This document shows, in pieces, positions 5,219 through 15,828 of a stretch of DNA of 28,018 bases. The notes under the pieces were generated by a model. It saw only the letters and a list, made by a program, of their open reading frames with translations. It did no database searches and had not been told where the DNA came from. Numbering within the stretch: position 1 is the first letter of the stretch; every line of letters starts with the position of its first letter. This DNA comes from Synura sp. LO234KE. Its lineage: Eukaryota > Sar > Synurophyceae > Synurales > Mallomonadaceae. The stretch spans positions 1 through 28,018 of the forward strand of contig VKHC01000022.1 of NCBI GenBank assembly GCA_015143735.1. The letters are read 5' to 3'. The translations under genes and the position numbers were made by a program.

Positions 5219-7084
5219 CTACCAGTCTTAATTAAAGTCTCTTGACTTTAACGTGAACTAAGCGATCTCAGTTTAGCACTAGCAGTGATAATTACAGAAA
5301 CATCTCACAAATAGTGCATTTTTAAAAGTGTAGTTTTAAGCTGAAATGGTCGAATTCTCTAAATAATGATAAATGAAGATTAAGTATTTGCACACATTAA
5401 CATTATTCTAGACAATATGAAACGGCGATCGTTCTCAATTTACGCAAAAAGTTTCCTCGGCTAACGAAAAGTTTGGTGCAGTCAATAGATTCGAAACTAA
5501 ATAGATTTACCTGCTCGCGACCTTAAAATATCACCACTCGCATAATATATTGACGCCCATTTCAAATAGTCATAAATTTACTTAAAGGTGACAAGGATTC
5601 CAATTTCCTCTAAAAACAAACACGGCTCAATTAAATTATAAAATTGAAATTAGAGTTTGTCGTGAAATGCAACCAGTATTTTAAGAGCAAGGAGTTCAAG
5701 ACTGTTCAATAATTTACAGATTTCTGTACCAAACATAAAACGGCTCGCATGGATCTCAAGGAGATCCTTGAAACTGTTGGTACGTGTTGCACCTCATTAT
5801 TTCTGTGGACTTCGTAAGTTAAGTTCTATTCAATTTACAATCGTTTGCTAGTTCCGACATTCACAGAAAATCTCGCGCATGACTTCATTTGGCATACAAC
5901 TTACCGAAGCAAACTTTCATCGATGGAAGCTTAAAGTTTTCGACAACTGTGCGAGAAAGTGTAACGCACGGTATAAACATGGTCTCATGGACCTCATTCT
6001 AACGGATGCTCAATGGCTCGTGTGCAACGGCGCTGCTGCAAAGCCTCAGCGCTAAATGCAAGAAGAAGTGCGGTAGAAAATTGTTTTCCCAAATTGCAGT
6101 ACATTTACCTCACACTTTCTTTTTACTACAGTTTAAAGTATCCGAACTTTGGTACGGACTTTGGTCTAACTAGGTCTTCTGGTCTAACTAGGTCTTCTGT
6201 TGATAATCTAAGCAACTAGCGGCACAAGAACAGATTAGTTCTTACTTTAATCGATCGAAAGAGAATAAGAAAAGCGGTTGAATTGAAAATCACATACGTT
6301 GGAGCACTTAAACATTAGACAGCACTCCGCCTGCCCAGTGCCCTTCCTCAGTCTAAGTGTAACAATGGTTACTGTGAATGACTCTCGGGAAATATGAATT
6401 CAAGGGACCTATCGTGAATAAACCATATGTGCAATATTCGTTCATCCCCCCCACAGACAAGATCATAAACGTATTTGCAATTACTTAGCAGCGCTAATAA
6501 GACAATCTATATTCAAAGGATTTTGGTGAGTACCTAATATAAGAACATTACATTCGGTAATCGTTCGTGCTGCCTAGAGTTTCGAGAAGGATTTTACTCT
6601 CCTGGAATATAGTGCTAAAAGTTGAACAAAAGTGCATTTCGAAATTATTCAAATATTTGACATTCAAACAATAGTTAAATTAGTCATCTATCGCTTGAAG
6701 TGGTGATATTAACTGGAAAAAGCTTCAATGGGTTGAACATTGTTAATCTCAGTTTCTAACGCACAACATTAGTTTTCGAAGTTATTCGATCAGCAAGTCA
6801 GTTATCCAGCCTTTTGAAATCGTTCGACGGAGGGAAGGTTGCGGCACACGCTTCGCGTCTTCACGCACAACTTGTGGATTCAACATACCTAAGAAAAGAG
6901 AACGTAAAAAAATTAAGCTAAACTATCAAATCAACTCGGGATATTGACGACTTCAATATTTCTGTATTTACTGAACTGTAAGTTCTACTGGAATTACGAA
7001 GTGGTTCAGGCAATATTATAAAAATATTGGGAAACTGGCGAAATCTGGAGTAACGTCTCGACTGACGTTGATATGAACGTGACG
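5219..7084. other. Long non-coding stretch, no gene recognised
   Basis: AT-rich, with stops in all frames and no convincing protein motif. The only feature seen is an 18-bp tandem duplication at 6163-6198. The right end is the 3' flank of the histidine kinase gene on the minus strand. Confidence 0.45.
6163..6198. repeat. 18-bp perfect tandem duplication
   Basis: GGTCTAACTAGGTCTTCT occurs twice head to tail without a mismatch. A recent slippage duplication; no function is implied. Confidence 0.9.
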
Positions 7085-10000
7085 CTACTTACCTCGAATT
7101 TTTGCGATTAGCAGATCGATATCGAGCGGTTTGGGCAGGACCAAGTCCGTCCCACTAGTTAGGAAAGTCTCCAAGTCCTGAGGCGAAGAGTTACCCGTCA
7201 CACCAATTATGATTCCTGTGTAACCTAGCCGACGTATGGCTCTGGTGGCTGTGGGTCCGTCCATCTTGGGCATCATAAAGTCCATTAGAATTACATCATA
7301 CGGAGCTTCCCCTCGCTCGACCATTTGTCTGACTTTAGAAACAGCCACTAGTCCGTCTTCTGCTTCATCCGGTATAAACAAGGATTTGTCGAGCATGCGT
7401 CGAACCATCTTACGATTAGAACTCGCGTCATCCACAAGTAAAATAGGCACAGGTCCAGAGAGGGGGACAGCGGCGATGAAATCATTATCCACTTCAACAG
7501 ATTTACAAGGAGTTCTGGTATTCGATTTCCTGGTTTTCCTCGATGCAGCGGATACAACTCTCTTACTATCCGAAGAAGCTGGGAATATTTGGTTCGAAAA
7601 ATGAATATAGTGTTCGGACGACTTCCATTCATCGGACTCCGATCTAATACCCGGTAACGATGAACCGGCCACCTTTACAGGAGAATTTATCGCCGCTAAT
7701 TGCTCTTTAGAGGAAAACAAAGATGACTTGTTGTCCACCACTGGTATTTCGAAGAAGAAAGTGCTTCCTAGGCCCTCACCCGGAGAGTACACTCCAATGC
7801 GGCCTCCGTGAAGGTCAATTATACGCTTCGATACTACGGTAAAATAATGCAAGAGGAATATGATATATAAGAAACAGTAGAGGACACTCCTATGCGGCCT
7901 CCGTGAAGGTCAATTATACGCTTCGATGCTACAATATAATAATACAAGGGGAATTTGATATTTGAGAAACATTTAGGGCACTTCCATACGGCCTCCATGA
8001 AGGTCTATTATACGCTTCAATACCATAGTATACGCAAGAGGAATATTGTGAATGAGAAACAGATGACACTTCTATGCGGCCGAGAAAATCTATCATGATC
8101 AGAATAATAATATAAGTGGAACATGATATATAAGTAACATTCGACACTCTTGTGCGGCCTCCTTGAAGGTTTATAGGAAGCTTCGACACTATATTATAAT
8201 TATACAATAGGAATTTGATATATGACGGACAGGTGAGGCCACTCCCATCCCGCCTCCTTAATGGTCCATTTACGCCTCAACACCATAGAGAAGAAATGCA
8301 ATAGAAATAGTTATCAAAAAGAAATTAAGATAAAGGGTAAAACAAATAATATGTCCAATTGAGCTCAAAAGCTGGAGGATCGACTTTGCATCTAGTCAGT
8401 AATCTGACTTATCCCCTATTTCGGGTTCTTCTATGGGTCTTATTAAGCCTCGTCGACTAGACTTAGGACTTGAATGCGCATATCGCCATTTTTCATTTCA
8501 AGAATAGTTCGAAACAGATTTGTCGACGTTGACTGTTTCAACAGTCGTCGCTCCTGCTTGGTAGAAGTCCTGTATTCTTGTGACATCCGTTGATTCTCAA
8601 ATAATGTGTCTGGTGTAAACGTGACTTGCTAATCCAATTGCTGATCTCCTCAGAGGTTGATCTCGATGGATTTGTATTGGCGGTGATAGTGAGACGAAGG
8701 GTTTGTATCGTCGGTGGTGAGCCAATCTTCATAGCTGATTCCGCAGAGATCTCTCACCATCTCGTCGTAGCAGTCGACAAGGCATATGTTAAACAATCGC
8801 TCCCAAAGTACTAACTGAAGGTGAGCTCGATATTTCCGCTCCAGGAGTACCAAGTCTCCGTCATATCAAGTTCGTTACGTTCTGACTTGATAGGGGGAAA
8901 GCATGTCGAGCTGTCTCTGGAAGTTGACGCTGATACAGGTAATCTACTGTTGGTAGGCAAAGATTGATCTTCAATACTACAATTTGTGCCTGCTGAATGG
9001 AGTATTGGCTCTTCACTTTCCACAGTTGGCCTCGTTACCTCTCTTTCCGATTTAATCTACGCCGGCTTTCGCTGCCGAGTCAAATATCGCCCCGCCTCTT
9101 TCAGGCTCAGTTAAAGTATCTCTTTCACGTGGAGATGAACAGTAATTGTATTCCGACAGAGTATGGTTTCGATCAATTGTGGGCGCCGAGTCAGTCATCG
9201 CTACTCTCAGAGGACGAAGTGCCTTGTTCATCTTTCTAATCATCTGTATGGTCAAAGATTCGAAGTAATTCTGTATGCAGTCGCTCCGCTCTGTTGACAA
9301 TCTTGGTAACGTGTTCGGATGCGCAAACGGAATTCTATAGTACACAGTCGGCATCTTACTAATGGACGACCGCCTGGACATCGCCACACTTGGTCCATCG
9401 CCTTTCCTGCAAGGTTTTGAAATCACTTCCAACCCACTTTTACACGCTTCCATAATTGAATACTTTCCAAATCCATCCACATATATAAAAAATAGAAAAA
9501 TGTTCACTGATGCAATAAACAATATATGGCTTTGATGAAATCAACGGTGCATTAATAGCACGTGGCCAACGATATTGCTATACTCTTCCAGAATGACGAG
9601 TTAATAAATGAATTAATAGAGGCTAGAACCGTCACCAAGTACATCGCCGATCAGCACAGACTTATGATCTTGAACATGCATATCGCTAGATGTTCATTTC
9701 AATCGGATTATTTCCAAACAGATTTGTCGACGTTGATTGTCTCAACAGTCGTCGCTGCTGCTAGGTAAAAGTCCTGTATTCTATTGACGTCCGTTAATTC
9801 TCAAACACATTGTCCGTTGATTCACAGATACAGTGTCCGTTGATTCTCAAATAGAGTGTGTCTCTTGATTCTCAAATACAGTACAATAATACAGAAGAAA
9901 TATGATATATGAGAAACAGGTGAGGACACTCCTACACGGTCTCCGTGAAGGTCGATTATACGCTTCGATACTATGGTATAACAATACAAGGGGAATATTG

Positions 10001-13000
10001 TGAATGAGAAACAAATGACACTTCTATACGGCCGAGAAAATCTACCATAATCAGAATAATAATACAAGTGGAACATAATATATAAGAAACAGGCGACACT
10101 CTTGTGCGGCCTCCTTGAAGGTCGATTATACGCTTCGATACTACGGTATAACAGTACAAGGGGAATATGATATACGAGAAACAGGTGAGGACACTCCTGC
10201 ACGGTCTCCGTGAAGGTCGATTATACGCTTCGATACTATGGTATAACAATACAAGGGGAATATGATATACGAGAAACAGGTGAGGACACTCCTACACGGT
10301 CTCCGTGAAGGTCGATTATACGCTTCGATACTATGGTATAACAATACAAGAATAAAAATAACTCGTACACTGATGAGTGCGCTTGCCCCAACAAATCAAC
10401 GCAATTTATACGGAATAAGCATATTGATAGAAAATTTTTGACATTAAAATTTAAAAGAGTTTGCACTATGGCCAACCACACGCGTATTGGAAGCTGACAA
10501 ATACAACGGTCTTCTCACACGTCTACATCCAAATCTCCGACAATTGCCACCTCCCAAATCCTTGTGATCACCGTTGAAAGATTACTACCGGTGAAAAGTC
10601 TCCACCGTTGAAAAATCGATTGATAGTCGCAATCGAGAATTCCTGGAGCTGATTGCACGTGATATAATGAAATTTCGTCCCAACTGAACACCTTGCCGTA
10701 GAAAGATACCTACGGTTGACCGATCCGTTAATAGGCGCCTTCAAGAATTGCTTGAGCTTGTATATTAAGAACGAGAGAAAGTATCTGAAGCCGAGACGAC
10801 ACACAAAGTTCCACTTAAAGGAAACCGTTGAAAATTACCGTAATAGCACAAGGCAACGATTTAAATGTATTCTCCGTGAAGATGAGTAGAAAATGAAATA
10901 AAAGAGGCTGGTCATCACCAAGTACATCACTGATCCGCAGAGACTTGAGAAAATCACGATCATGCAGTACTTGTAAGCATATTTTATTGATAAGAAATAA
11001 TAATAAAATAAAAGATTTTGTCTTATGGCTAACAAAACGCGTTTCGGAAGCATGCAAACAGAGAAGTACAAATTTATATACAACTTATAAATGCACTCGT
11101 CTATACGGTATAAACGGATGAATATAAAGAGGTACGTAACTGCTTCGTCCTGGGAGAGCCGTGCACTTACTAGGACTATTATTGTAGTATGAAACGGGTA
11201 TACCAGACGTAATAGTGGTACTCACTCCAGAGTCCGAAGCCGGAGCCGTTTCCGTTCTGCAACACGTCCGGCGAGAACTGGATCACCTCCTTGAAGAGGC
11301 GCTTCTGGTTCTCCTACACGCAGTAAGGGGGAAGGAAAACCTATCAAAATACGAATGGATTCAAATGGACCGCTTGACCCATTCAACAGCGCGCATATCT
11401 GAGCGATGGTCAAATCAGGTAGGATAGATTAGGTACCACTAATGGAAGCAATAAATCAATATTTTTCCTATATCTAAATAATAAAAGCATAAGATACGTG
11501 GCGGAGAACAACAACTCTTAACCTCACCGCGGATATTCCAGCTCCTGTGTCCGTGACTTCAAAACGGAAATAAGGAGGGGACAGCGAGCAATCTGGACTG
11601 GAACCCAACGATGTGGTTGCTCGAGTACCTTCGTTAGAACTGTCGATGTTGACTAAAAGTACAATCGTCGCCTTAACAGTTATTCCGCCTCCTTTGGGAG
11701 TGAATTTGAGAGCGTTAGACAGAAGGTTCCGAACCACCTGAGATATCTTCTGTTTGTCGATGTTTATCGAGAAGTTATCCAAAGTATTTTGATCTTTAGT
11801 AGCATTATTAGGATATGCGCCAGAGAGTTTATTGCTGTCATCATTCACGTTGACGCTTCTGCCTTTGTTTCCAAACTCATCAGAATCTTCGCTGCTCGCG
11901 TCAAATTCTTTATTTCGGTTATTATAAGCTCTGCTTCTGATGCCTTCATCTACTCCCATCTCAATGCTTAGACCAATACCAAGGGATCTCGCCTGTGGTT
12001 GAAACGTAGAAAGATAAAGTAATATCAAACCATTCATATTCGGAGGACAGTTTCAAAAGTTAGAATGAGAAGAAAGGAAGTACGAGCGTACTAAAATTAA
12101 GAACTTAAAAAAACATGCAGCGTCGAAATCGCGTTGTTAGCAGTTCGAAGAAAAACACGCTGCTTTCCTTCATCCGCTCATGTGTCAATTAATTTCCTAC
12201 ATTCACGAGAACTATAATCAACTAAATCAGCATTTCACTACCAGCCATCTTTACTAATACGCACACAAATATATATCTTAGACTAGTAAACTTCGATGTT
12301 ACTCAAATCTACATTCAAGCAGTACTAGAGAAGTTAACAAAATTACCTGTAATTTGAAGGGCTTGGAGGCGCTCCGGATGAAATCGAAGGCAGGCTCGTG
12401 TTTGAAATAGGTGTGCAGTAGTCCTCCGTCCAGCTTCTCGTACGTCAGCAAGTCGTTCAGTATGTCTACCGCTGCCTCACACGACACACTTACTTCCTCC
12501 ACCACATCGACGGTGTCCTGGTCCATGGTCGAGTTATTGGACTCGGACTGCTTCTTGAGATAGTTCAGGCCAAGTACCACAGCATTGAGTGGTGTTCGAA
12601 TTTCATGGGAAACGTAACGGACAAACATTCGTTTCACCTCGAGCAGATTCTGCACGAAAATTTCATTTTAAGTGATTGGAATCTAATTATTGTTATCGCA
12701 AAAATTTTGGCAGTTCAAGTATCTTAAAGCTGACGGAAACAATATGCTCAAATATGCACACACGCCTGCCCAGTTTTAACTAACCGCGACATCCGATGCC
12801 TCCGCATGCCATTTCCTCGCGTAAGACACTGAGAACAATACCATATACAAAGATACGGCGTACGAGAAACTCGTGATAAAAGTTATACTGTAATCCTCCC
12901 ATTTCACATTTCGATAATGAATAAGTATACAAAACCCTCCAAGGAAACATGTAATCAACGCACACATTCGAGCAAAACAAACTTTATTGTGTGGATCCAA

Positions 13001-13618
13001 ATCAGGGAAAGATTTCTTGTATAAAAATTTCTTGTACCACACAAAAAAGGTTCGAAAAGTCAGCAAGGCACCAGAACTGATGCTTACAAATGACAATATT
13101 CCGGTAGCAGATTTTATGTTCATTATGTATCCATCTTGAAAACTAAGGGCGAAGTACAGGGACGTGAAACCCGAAACCGTCAATGATGTCCAATGATCCC
13201 ACAAATCACCACAAATGATGTTTAGAGAAGAACAATGGCCACATATTGCAACTGAGAAGTATAAGCATTGCAACATTAGGTAAATTTGTCCGCTGATTGA
13301 ATTTGATCTCAACGCAATCCAAATTATTATGTTCATGATTGCATACGCCATATTTGTACTCCATCTGGCCGCCATATGCTTTTTGGGGATACGACTAGAA
13401 ACGAGAGTCTCTAATAGCAAATGAACAATTATCTGTACGGATATTCCGACCCCGATCAGGGTGGCGTCTGCAAATTCTTTACTTTGCAATGACCGATATA
13501 AATTTGAGTGATGATCCGCTGTACACGTTGCAATTTTAACACAGTATGAGATGACCATAATAGGAAGAAGGAAACAATACTGTCCCAAAACCAATGTTGT
13601 TCTATCATTTGTTACCAT
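7085..13618 (-). CDS. Membrane-bound hybrid histidine kinase (HisKA, HATPase_c, receiver), five exons
   Basis: Five minus-strand exons join to 812 codons: 13618-12785, 12649-12347, 11992-11528, 11313-11226 and 7833-7085. All introns are GT-AG. Start: AAAATGG context with an in-frame TAA three codons upstream. Residues 1-278 hold about eight hydrophobic segments (near 9-30, 53-75, 89-104, 112-135, 146-162, 170-195, 212-235, 243-266), a sensor I cannot assign. HisKA H-box is FVRYVSHEIRTPLNAV with phospho-acceptor His293. HATPase_c has N-box QVVRNLLSNALKFTP (Asn472), G1 DTGAGIS (527-533), F-box KRLFKEVIQF and G2 GSGFGLWISKRIIDLHGG, the last restored only by the exon 4/5 junction. After a polar linker, the receiver domain (about 692-810) has Asp698/Asp699, phospho-Asp748 (LMDFMMPKMDG), Thr776 and Lys798. 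It should autophosphorylate and relay His293 to Asp748. Intron 4 (3.4 kb) carries copies of the exon 5 boundary. A GTAAGT overlaps the stop. Confidence 0.93.
7834..8310 (-). repeat. Exon-boundary repeat array, cluster 1 (older copies)
   Basis: About five units of ~80-95 bp follow the true exon 5 acceptor (TAG at 7836-7834) inside intron 4. Each unit combines ~40 nt of intron end with ~50 nt of exon 5 start. Unit ends fall near 7875, 7972, 8061, 8141, 8233 and 8310. Copy 1 keeps GTAG/CATCG (AG at 7930-7929) and stays close to the exon 5 sequence. Copy 4 keeps ATAG/TGTCG (AG at 8190-8189). Copies 2 and 5 have lost the AG, and copy 3 has a replaced middle. These copies are more diverged than cluster 2. 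Confidence 0.85.
8475..9812. repeat. Intron-4 segmental duplication: 8475-8612 and 9675-9812
   Basis: Two direct copies of about 138 bp share blocks such as ACAGATTTGTCGACGTTGA, CAACAGTCGTCGCT and GTCCTGTATTCT. One lies just beyond cluster 1 of the exon-boundary repeat and the other just before cluster 2. Together with the shared order of repeat units this points to duplication of a larger block within the intron. Confidence 0.75.
8650..9522 (-). other. Unassigned coding-like block inside intron 4
   Basis: Three minus-strand frames follow one another in the direction of the host gene. 9522-9052 encodes 156 aa (MFIASVNIFLFFIYVDGFGK with a hydrophobic start, then a basic Ser-rich part). 9023-8811 encodes 70 aa (Ser/Thr/Glu-rich). 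8853-8650 encodes 67 aa with YDEMVRDLCGISYEDWL. They lie in three different frames, so joining them needs splicing or frameshifts. It sits between the two segmental-duplication copies, so it may be an insertion. No family recognised. It could be a nested gene, an element relic or chance. Confidence 0.25.
9880..10350 (-). repeat. Exon-boundary repeat array, cluster 2 (younger copies)
   Basis: A partial unit (to 9920) is followed by five units of ~95 bp, starting near 9921, 10013, 10093, 10185 and 10280. Four carry a perfect acceptor TAG/TATCG, with AG at 9972-9971, 10142-10141, 10237-10236 and 10332-10331, followed by a near-copy of the exon 5 start. Spliced in phase to exon 4, the newest copies read ISKRIIDLHGDRVGVSSP instead of ISKRIIDLHGGRIGVYSP. 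The unit near 10013 has the same replaced middle as copy 3 of cluster 1 (8062), so clusters 1 and 2 share an ordered block and one derives from the other. Confidence 0.88.
10565..10850. repeat. Short interspersed motif ACCGTTGAAA and diverged ~115-bp repeat
   Basis: ACCGTTGAAA recurs near 10570, 10609 and 10827. The stretch near 10610-10680 (GTTGA, GAATTCCTGGAGCT, GATATAATGAAA) resembles the one near 10715-10785 (GTTGA, GAATTGCTTGAGCTTG, GAACGAGAGAAA). Identity is low and the second claim is tentative. Confidence 0.35.
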
Positions 13619-14168: not shown

Positions 14169-15828
14169 GTGTAAAGGAGATAGTTTATGCTCTACACGAT
14201 GCTTTGCCACATACGGTAGTGGTCAATTAAACAATTTAATATCATCATGGTCAGTAAAAAAAATGACTATTGTGTTCATGTACCTCGAGCCTAATCTGTT
14301 GGCGGCATCAGTAAAGTCTCAGATATCACTGCTTCGATTGTCGTAAAACCTCGTTTATTGTTTTAAATGAAAATAATATTCTTGACAAAATCGGAAAAAG
14401 TGGTAGAAATAAGCAGTCCAATAGCGAAATCCCTTAAAAGTAAAAAACGAGTGTTAGAATTAAATGCTTTATTTCGAATTCCTAAGCCGAGTTATCCTTG
14501 TTAAACAAAATGATATTCATGAAATATTACGATTAGTCGACGAACAAAGGGATCCCGCTGATGAAGAAGACTCTCCTAGTTCAGAAAATGATGGGTGTTC
14601 ATTGACCAGGACCACTAGTAAGTGCTTCGCCAAGCGATATTCAAGAGCGCAATAGTTATGGGAATCCATATGATGTCAACGCCTTCCAATCATCAATAGA
14701 GAAATTACGAGGGTACTTACGATCTCTGCATCGATAATATACTTGTGTTACTGGCAAAGCCGCCCCTCGATACAATGAAAACTGCAACAATAGATTCTGA
14801 TGGGAGTGAAACTGCTTCCGCTTCATTATCGTCCGCGTTGCTGTCGAGGGAATCCTCAATTGGTACAAGGTCGGCTGTTACAGGCGCGGAAATCCTGATG
14901 GTTATTTGGGGCACACCGCTCCTCCAGATGTGATGACAACATCAACAGTGATGTGAACGTTAATTTAAATGGGAGGGGAAAAGGCGACGATTTTATAACG
15001 GTCCAACTGCAACCTCAGGGGGAGATGTTTGGATTATCATTCTGGAAGTACTGGTGCATACGGGGGAGCGCAAAGGCAATAGCTTGCCTTTTGAATGGGA
15101 TTGAATTGATGTTGTCCAAACAGTTGCTGGGACCGATTATTAGCCTTTATTGGGTGATTGACTCTGATTTTCTATTTGTACTCAGGAGCTTTTGTGTATT
15201 CGAGGACACCCGAGCTCTCAGCCGATCTGCTGCGGGCTGCCAGTGACATGATATACAAGGCTGGATTGAACCCAAACGACTTCTGTATTGTCCGAAACTC
15301 CTGTTTTCAACGAAGTCCATCCAACTCCATGGACACTGACGGCTCCTCAACATCCGAGTCCGGGTCCTCGATAACTGCAGATGAAAGAGATAATCGAGTT
15401 TGTTCCAGCTGGATTGTATCCGACACTGACACAGTCGAGGGGAGGGCCCATAACAACAACACGAACGACGTTACTCCGGCGAATAACGTACGTGATACAG
15501 ATGTATTATCCGTGTCAGTTGGCTCAGGAGACCAAGCGACAGTTTGTGTAGTAATCGGAGTGGGGTTCGGGGTGGGGATAGGTTTGACGAGGACATCTAT
15601 CAGAGGTTTTTCCAAAAGACGCGAGAGATAGCTGCGGAGCTATATGATTGGTTTCAAGAACCCTCCATACTATCTGAGTGGCTCTTGTAACAGCAACAGC
15701 ATATGGTGCTCGGGCAACCGGTGGTAAGGGGAATGGCTACTCCGTCGTTATCCCCCTTGTATCACTCCTTGCACCAGTCTCAGCCGAGGTCGTGTCAGTA
15801 TGTATGTTATTGTACTCTATGTGACTAA
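14169..15828 (+). pseudogene. Violaxanthin de-epoxidase-like gene, broken by frameshifts and a stop
   Basis: The family removes epoxide oxygens from xanthophylls in the plastid lumen. Pieces appear in family order. After an acceptor at 14167-14168 comes the Cys-rich part CKGDSLCSTRCFATYGSGQL. A run of eight A (14256-14263) shifts the frame, and NDYCVHVPRA then fits the expected Cys-containing continuation. Lipocalin pieces follow: YHCFDCRKTSF (14324), LFRIPKP (about 14466), MFGLSFWKYW (15025-15054), then after acceptor 15184-15185 GAFVYSRTPELSADLLRAA and KAGLNPNDFCIVRNSCF. An acidic Ser/Asn-rich tail changes frame near 15570-15590 and continues DIYQRFFQKTREIAAELYDW and FQEPSILSEWLL. TAA at 15688-15690 is followed in frame by QQQHMVLGQPVVRGM to TAA at 15826-15828, so it is probably a premature stop. 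The start and plastid targeting region are not visible. At least four frame changes make a functional gene unlikely. Confidence 0.7.

Follow-up and report, generated by a model that had tools for sequence, protein, structure and literature searches.

Introduction

How an intron comes to hold many copies of its own end, each joined to a copy of the start of the following exon, and whether such copies matter to the gene that carries them, are the questions raised by a predicted histidine kinase gene in the window analysed here, a stretch of 28,018 nucleotides that corresponds to contig C22 in an 8.09-Mb assembly comprising 549 contigs. In this gene, the junction between intron 4 and exon 5 recurs 11 times within intron 4, besides the genuine junction.

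The kinase gene

Six exons joined at GT...AG borders give a single frame of 845 aa, which stays open through the genuine junction (Table 1). Pfam matches to HisKA, HATPase_c and Response_reg are found in the exons, and the gene reads as a eukaryotic hybrid histidine kinase. In a homologue search that scored the 7,994 candidates with the most words in common, the named homologues among the 120 best of 4,290 belong to Mallomonas, Ochromonas and Paraphysomonas, their identity being about 30-47% across a part or a large share of the query, and no close relative is present among these 120 of 4,290; we infer a chrysophyte-like host for the gene. Across the whole window, no Rfam family was found at the gathering score, and a scan for patterns of prokaryotic contigs returned nothing, as expected for a eukaryote. 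At 15158-15631 there is a frame whose weak match to a Pfam family, the violaxanthin de-epoxidase lipocalin domain (PF07137), falls slightly short of the cut-off (24.7 bits against 25.7, E 1.9e-5).

Table 1. Coordinates in the window of the predicted kinase gene and of the junction copies in its fourth intron
Feature	Positions	Strand	Evidence
Predicted hybrid histidine kinase gene, six exons	6782..13618	-	joined open frame of 845 aa; domains in exons
Kinase exons 1-3	13618-12785, 12649-12347, 11992-11528	-	GT...AG borders and open frame
Kinase exons 4-6	11313-11226, 7833-7093, 6888-6782	-	GT...AG borders and open frame
Intron 4, 3,392 nt	7834..11225	-	GT...AG borders, open frame; paralogues with intron at same place
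Unit 1, AG kept, acceptor before 10330; upstream end not unit-like	10279..10350	-	profile and alignment
Unit 2, AG kept, acceptor before 10235	10184..10278	-	profile and alignment
Unit 3, AG kept, acceptor before 10140	10091..10183	-	profile and alignment
Unit 4, degenerate, acceptor in alignment gap	10013..10090	-	profile and alignment
Unit 5, AG kept, acceptor before 9970	9919..10012	-	profile and alignment
Unit 6, intron half only, ends just before acceptor	9877..9918	-	profile and alignment
Interruption, largely a dispersed, degenerate, coding-like repeat	8311..9876	-	own-genome matches over about 9812-8296; frames
Unit 7, AG lost	8232..8310	-	profile and alignment
Unit 8, AG kept (TAG/TGTCG), acceptor before 8188	8138..8231	-	profile and alignment
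Unit 9, degenerate, shares 91% identity with unit 4	8061..8137	-	profile and alignment
Unit 10, AG changed to GG	7971..8060	-	profile and alignment
Unit 11, AG kept (TAG/CATCG), acceptor before 7928	7877..7970	-	profile and alignment
Genuine junction of intron 4 with exon 5, which begins at 7833	7782..7876	-	open frame; top score of 195 AGs

An array of junction copies in intron 4

The repeated unit is about 95 nt long, of which 43 nt correspond to the end of the intron and 52 nt to the beginning of the exon, the units being tandem direct repeats that span the boundary. When the 100 nt around 7833 were compared with positions 6001-11400 of the window (BLASTN), 10 further copies of the junction were found, with E values from 2e-26 to 1e-6. 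A profile built from six units gives 13 rows in the whole window, namely the genuine unit, the 11 intronic copies and one weak row outside the intron (plus strand, 16360, E 6.5), and it includes an intronic segment near 8285 (E 2.5e-8) that was missed by BLASTN. An earlier sequence-only reading of this DNA, which had described at least ten duplications of a unit of about 95 bp, with some 40 nt of intron and 50 nt of exon, is borne out on both counts, and its copy coordinates agree with the profile and the alignment.

The splice signal is kept in many but not all copies, with the AG intact in 6 of the 11. A perfect TAG/TATCG (the slash marks the junction) stands before 10330, 10235, 10140 and 9970, while before 8188 and 7928 the AG is followed by one changed base (TAG/TGTCG and TAG/CATCG, respectively); four perfect acceptors and two with a changed base had also been read from the letters, and the alignment confirms them, as it does the place of the genuine acceptor as the last of seven AG-bearing candidates. 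Of the other five copies, those at 8285 and 8023 have lost the AG, the two degenerate ones (about 10045 and 8095) have a gap there in the alignment, and the half unit ending at 9877 stops short of it. The amplification was at first taken for a single tandem array, and its tandem nature stands, but the units form two arrays (10350-9877 and about 8310-7834) that are split by about 1.5 kb made up largely of a dispersed repeat.

Pairwise identity among all units ranges from 51 to 94%, the differences comprising both substitutions and indels. As to homogenisation within the cluster that would spare its edges, identity is 94% between the inner units 2 and 5 and 89% between units 2 and 3, but the exon half of unit 1 is the same as that of unit 5 (52/52) while the upstream end of unit 1 differs, and the genuine unit is closest to its neighbouring copy (87%). 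Because the degenerate units 4 and 9 flank the interruption and are so alike (91%), and because 8035-8270 matches 9987-10222 at 83%, a block of units appears to have been duplicated, and most simply this block duplication preceded the split of the array by the interruption.

The interruption and a dispersed repeat

At least 124 of the at least 129 matches of intron 4 in its own genome fall within window positions 9812-8296, with copies in many contigs, while two others are to C22 itself and three lie elsewhere in the intron; all of these counts are lower bounds, as 40 of 45 first-look candidates were scored. The copies of the dispersed repeat carry broken, coding-like frames. No Pfam family exceeded its cut-off in six frames taken from the repeat and from sequence around it, two of which gave weak sub-threshold rows, and the window's own frame in the interruption (9052-9522) has no Pfam match. 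The repeat would appear to be a mobile element. Several copies of it stand in a row on contig C387, and a 23-bp tandem array of four copies lies at the start of the interruption in the window (9789-9882).

The half unit at 9918-9877 and the partial unit at 8310-8232 fit an insertion into the array, and, since no clear target-site duplication was seen around the interruption, the order in which the array came first and the interruption later is the presumed one. The interruption was also considered as a decayed kinase exon, which is unsupported: in comparisons of the listed homologues and of the kinase itself with the intron, the best matches were to the array, with 0 of 70 best rows in the interruption. 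Likewise unsupported is a retroelement with a reverse-transcriptase-like frame as the source of the repeat. The frame in question, at L011 2891-3229 near a copy of the repeat, which we took to resemble a reverse-transcriptase motif, has no Pfam match at E 1 and occurs at a single place in the genome.

Paralogous kinases and the rest of the genome

An acceptor occupies the same codon position in eight paralogous kinases (on C105, C305, C131, C188, C421, C16, C37 and C79). A second copy of the junction was found in 0 of 8 in up to 1.5 kb upstream, where the same test gives ten in C22, and a retest of C421 over a longer stretch again gave none. The paralogue introns measure 79-218 nt in seven of the eight, in which the upstream G2-box exon was located; upstream of the C421 paralogue exon, no G2-box exon matching the motif was found in about 3.9 kb. 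Given the short introns of these seven at the same place, a short shared intron appears to have been lengthened to 3,392 nt here.

Contig C421, too, carries a copy of the dispersed repeat (L034 91-1274), about 230 nt upstream of the homologous paralogue exon and in the same orientation. This copy is 72% identical to the repeat in the window, and 65% over a longer stretch, lower than the 78-79% of the best copies, and the C16 paralogue, which has the same 32-aa G2 tail, has an intron of 79 nt there, from both of which it is argued that the C421 copy is probably an independent insertion.

The array unit itself has at least five matches in its own genome, all on C22, and on this ground a dispersed satellite or mobile element was rejected as its nature; within the searches made, units of the array turned up in no intron but this one. 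Tandem repeats are not rare in the sampled genome, where Tandem Repeats Finder, applied to 34 loci that total 108,674 bases (any overlap between loci being counted twice), gave 16 rows with a period of at least 20.

Splice sites, predicted products and selection on the copies

Acceptors were scored with a matrix of 12 acceptors from the same genome, 8 of which are the homologous paralogue acceptors, and whose leave-one-out scores run from -4.3 to 8.6. With this small matrix the genuine acceptor scores 8.98, the highest of 195 AGs. The four best copied acceptors reach 5.75-5.94, which lies between the lowest and the highest leave-one-out scores of the 12 real acceptors and makes their use plausible, and the two other AG-bearing copies score 3.53 and 2.75. 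Four AGs outside the array (8946, 9200, 8456 and 9358) outscore the copied acceptors, and for this reason, as well as for its small size and its homologous members, the matrix is a weak guide. The best donors inside the units score 2.5 (8274) and 2.4 (7990), as opposed to at least 5.9 in 10 of 11 real donors and 1.8 in the eleventh (leave-one-out), and the top donors in 10400-7700 belong either to the interruption (8816, 9427) or to exon 5 (7780). The site at 7780, a donor-like CGG/GTGAGG on the minus strand that scores 6.3 with a small matrix, adjoins the low end of the unit (7782).

When the predicted joins are translated, all of the AG-bearing copied acceptors lead to a stop before the receiver, with products of 594-649 aa. 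A G2-box tail is still recognisable when the exon-like part of the copies is translated, as had been claimed from the sequence, but the description of this part as near-synonymous was overstated, as the four best copies have 7 or 8 differences each from the genuine exon, of which 4 are at third codon positions, and variation among eight copies is spread about evenly over codon positions 1, 2 and 3 (9 of 17, 11 of 18 and 8 of 17 columns, respectively, all small counts). The genuine exon departs from the majority of the copies at 0 of 17, 1 of 18 and 4 of 17 columns of the same positions, which are again small counts, a pattern as expected with selection on the genuine exon alone. Conservation of the AG columns is 0.73, compared with 0.82 in the intron part and 0.81 in the exon part, gaps being counted. 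No sign of working copies was found in codon-position bias, AG conservation, donors or reading frames.

Discussion

The array is best read as a nearly inert minisatellite that would have lengthened the intron, and very probably as one of the type known as a mirage, with the genuine last junction presumably in use and the copies decaying as intron sequence. Under this reading, a segment of about 95 nt, containing the intron 4 acceptor and the opening 52 nt of exon 5, would have been tandemly duplicated, and the array would then have grown by unequal exchange or gene conversion, including the duplication of a block of units, before being split in two by pieces of the dispersed repeat, in what is a presumed order of events. 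The gene would keep its last, genuine junction, to which splicing presumably proceeds, as the copies decay, and any use of the copied acceptors would yield transcripts that stop before the receiver. The probable outcome is that the intron has grown while the protein is affected little or not at all.

It could instead be proposed that the array is a regulatory decoy, in which upstream acceptors compete with the genuine one, a share of the transcripts is receiver-less or unstable, and copy number tunes the amount of kinase. Such a role would draw on the six AG-bearing copies that lie upstream of the genuine acceptor, on the four of these that score in the range of real acceptors, and on the uniform truncation of their predicted products ahead of the receiver; it is nevertheless unlikely, in that the AG columns have no special conservation, the genuine acceptor has the top score, the non-array AGs that also outscore the copies show the matrix not to be specific, and the array is absent from the paralogues. 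The recognisable G2-box tail in the copies' exon-like part might likewise suggest cassette or alternative exons built from copied exon starts, but the units contain no strong donor, on which ground this proposal was rejected, and the copies are without codon constraint, leaving it scarcely credible.

That extra units arose by misassembly of short reads is very improbable. While the assembly is fragmented, the units differ by substitutions and indels and other sequence stands between the two parts of the array, which argues against a simple copying error, although the number of units could still be wrong.

Tandem, minisatellite-like duplications of intron/exon boundaries have been described in amphioxus as 'mirages', with reports of them in Adh3 and in the globins BflGb6 and BflGb9 (PMC3087553), as well as in Adh, TnC and PGBD5 (PMC3902484). 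In BflGb6, the unit (150-160 bp) joins an intron's 3' end to the 5' portion of the exon that follows, two haplotypes carry 6 and 3 units that are 81-100% identical, and many, although not all, repeats keep their splice signals (PMC3087553). RT-PCR of amphioxus globins suggests that regular splicing is undisturbed by the mirages (PMC3087553). The kinase array is like the amphioxus mirages in being tandem, minisatellite-like and boundary-spanning, and like BflGb6 in joining the 3' end of an intron to an exon start; judged by its architecture, it is a mirage. It differs in its presumably alga-like host, in its histidine kinase gene and in its units of about 95 nt, and also in that its copies are more diverged and are split by a dispersed repeat, and it is known here from sequence, as opposed to the globins, whose splicing has been tested by RT-PCR.

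Two other known systems bear a partial likeness. In the minisatellite of human IFI6 (6-16), the units carry splice donors, two downstream units reportedly being used (PMC4526556, citing Turri et al. 1995); this is like the kinase array in having minisatellite units with splice sites at an exon/intron border, whereas the IFI6 units supply donors, two of them reportedly used, and those of the kinase array carry candidate acceptors. Intron gain by tandem genomic duplication (PMC4974935, PMC3443670) likewise involves tandem duplication of gene sequence at splice sites, but in the kinase gene no new intron is seen, and it is an existing shared intron that has been lengthened. In the open-access literature searched, which amounts to a partial survey, no mirages were found beyond amphioxus, and no printed case was found in a two-component gene or in an alga. 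The statement of the sequence-only reading that no case had been described in a two-component gene therefore holds within that literature, although the same architecture is on record for the amphioxus mirages. This kind of boundary-spanning array is already known, and what may be new is the type of gene and the lineage of its host.

If the array is read correctly, boundary-spanning minisatellites would not be confined to lancelets, as far as the limited open-access literature allows, and in a eukaryote that resembles an alga they can make a short shared intron many times longer with the gene still open. Were the copies to act as decoys, the copy number of the array would set the dose of the sensor kinase, with transcripts divided between receiver-less or short-lived forms and the full kinase. 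The four near-identical acceptors that precede the genuine one would in themselves provide a natural test of 3' splice site choice.
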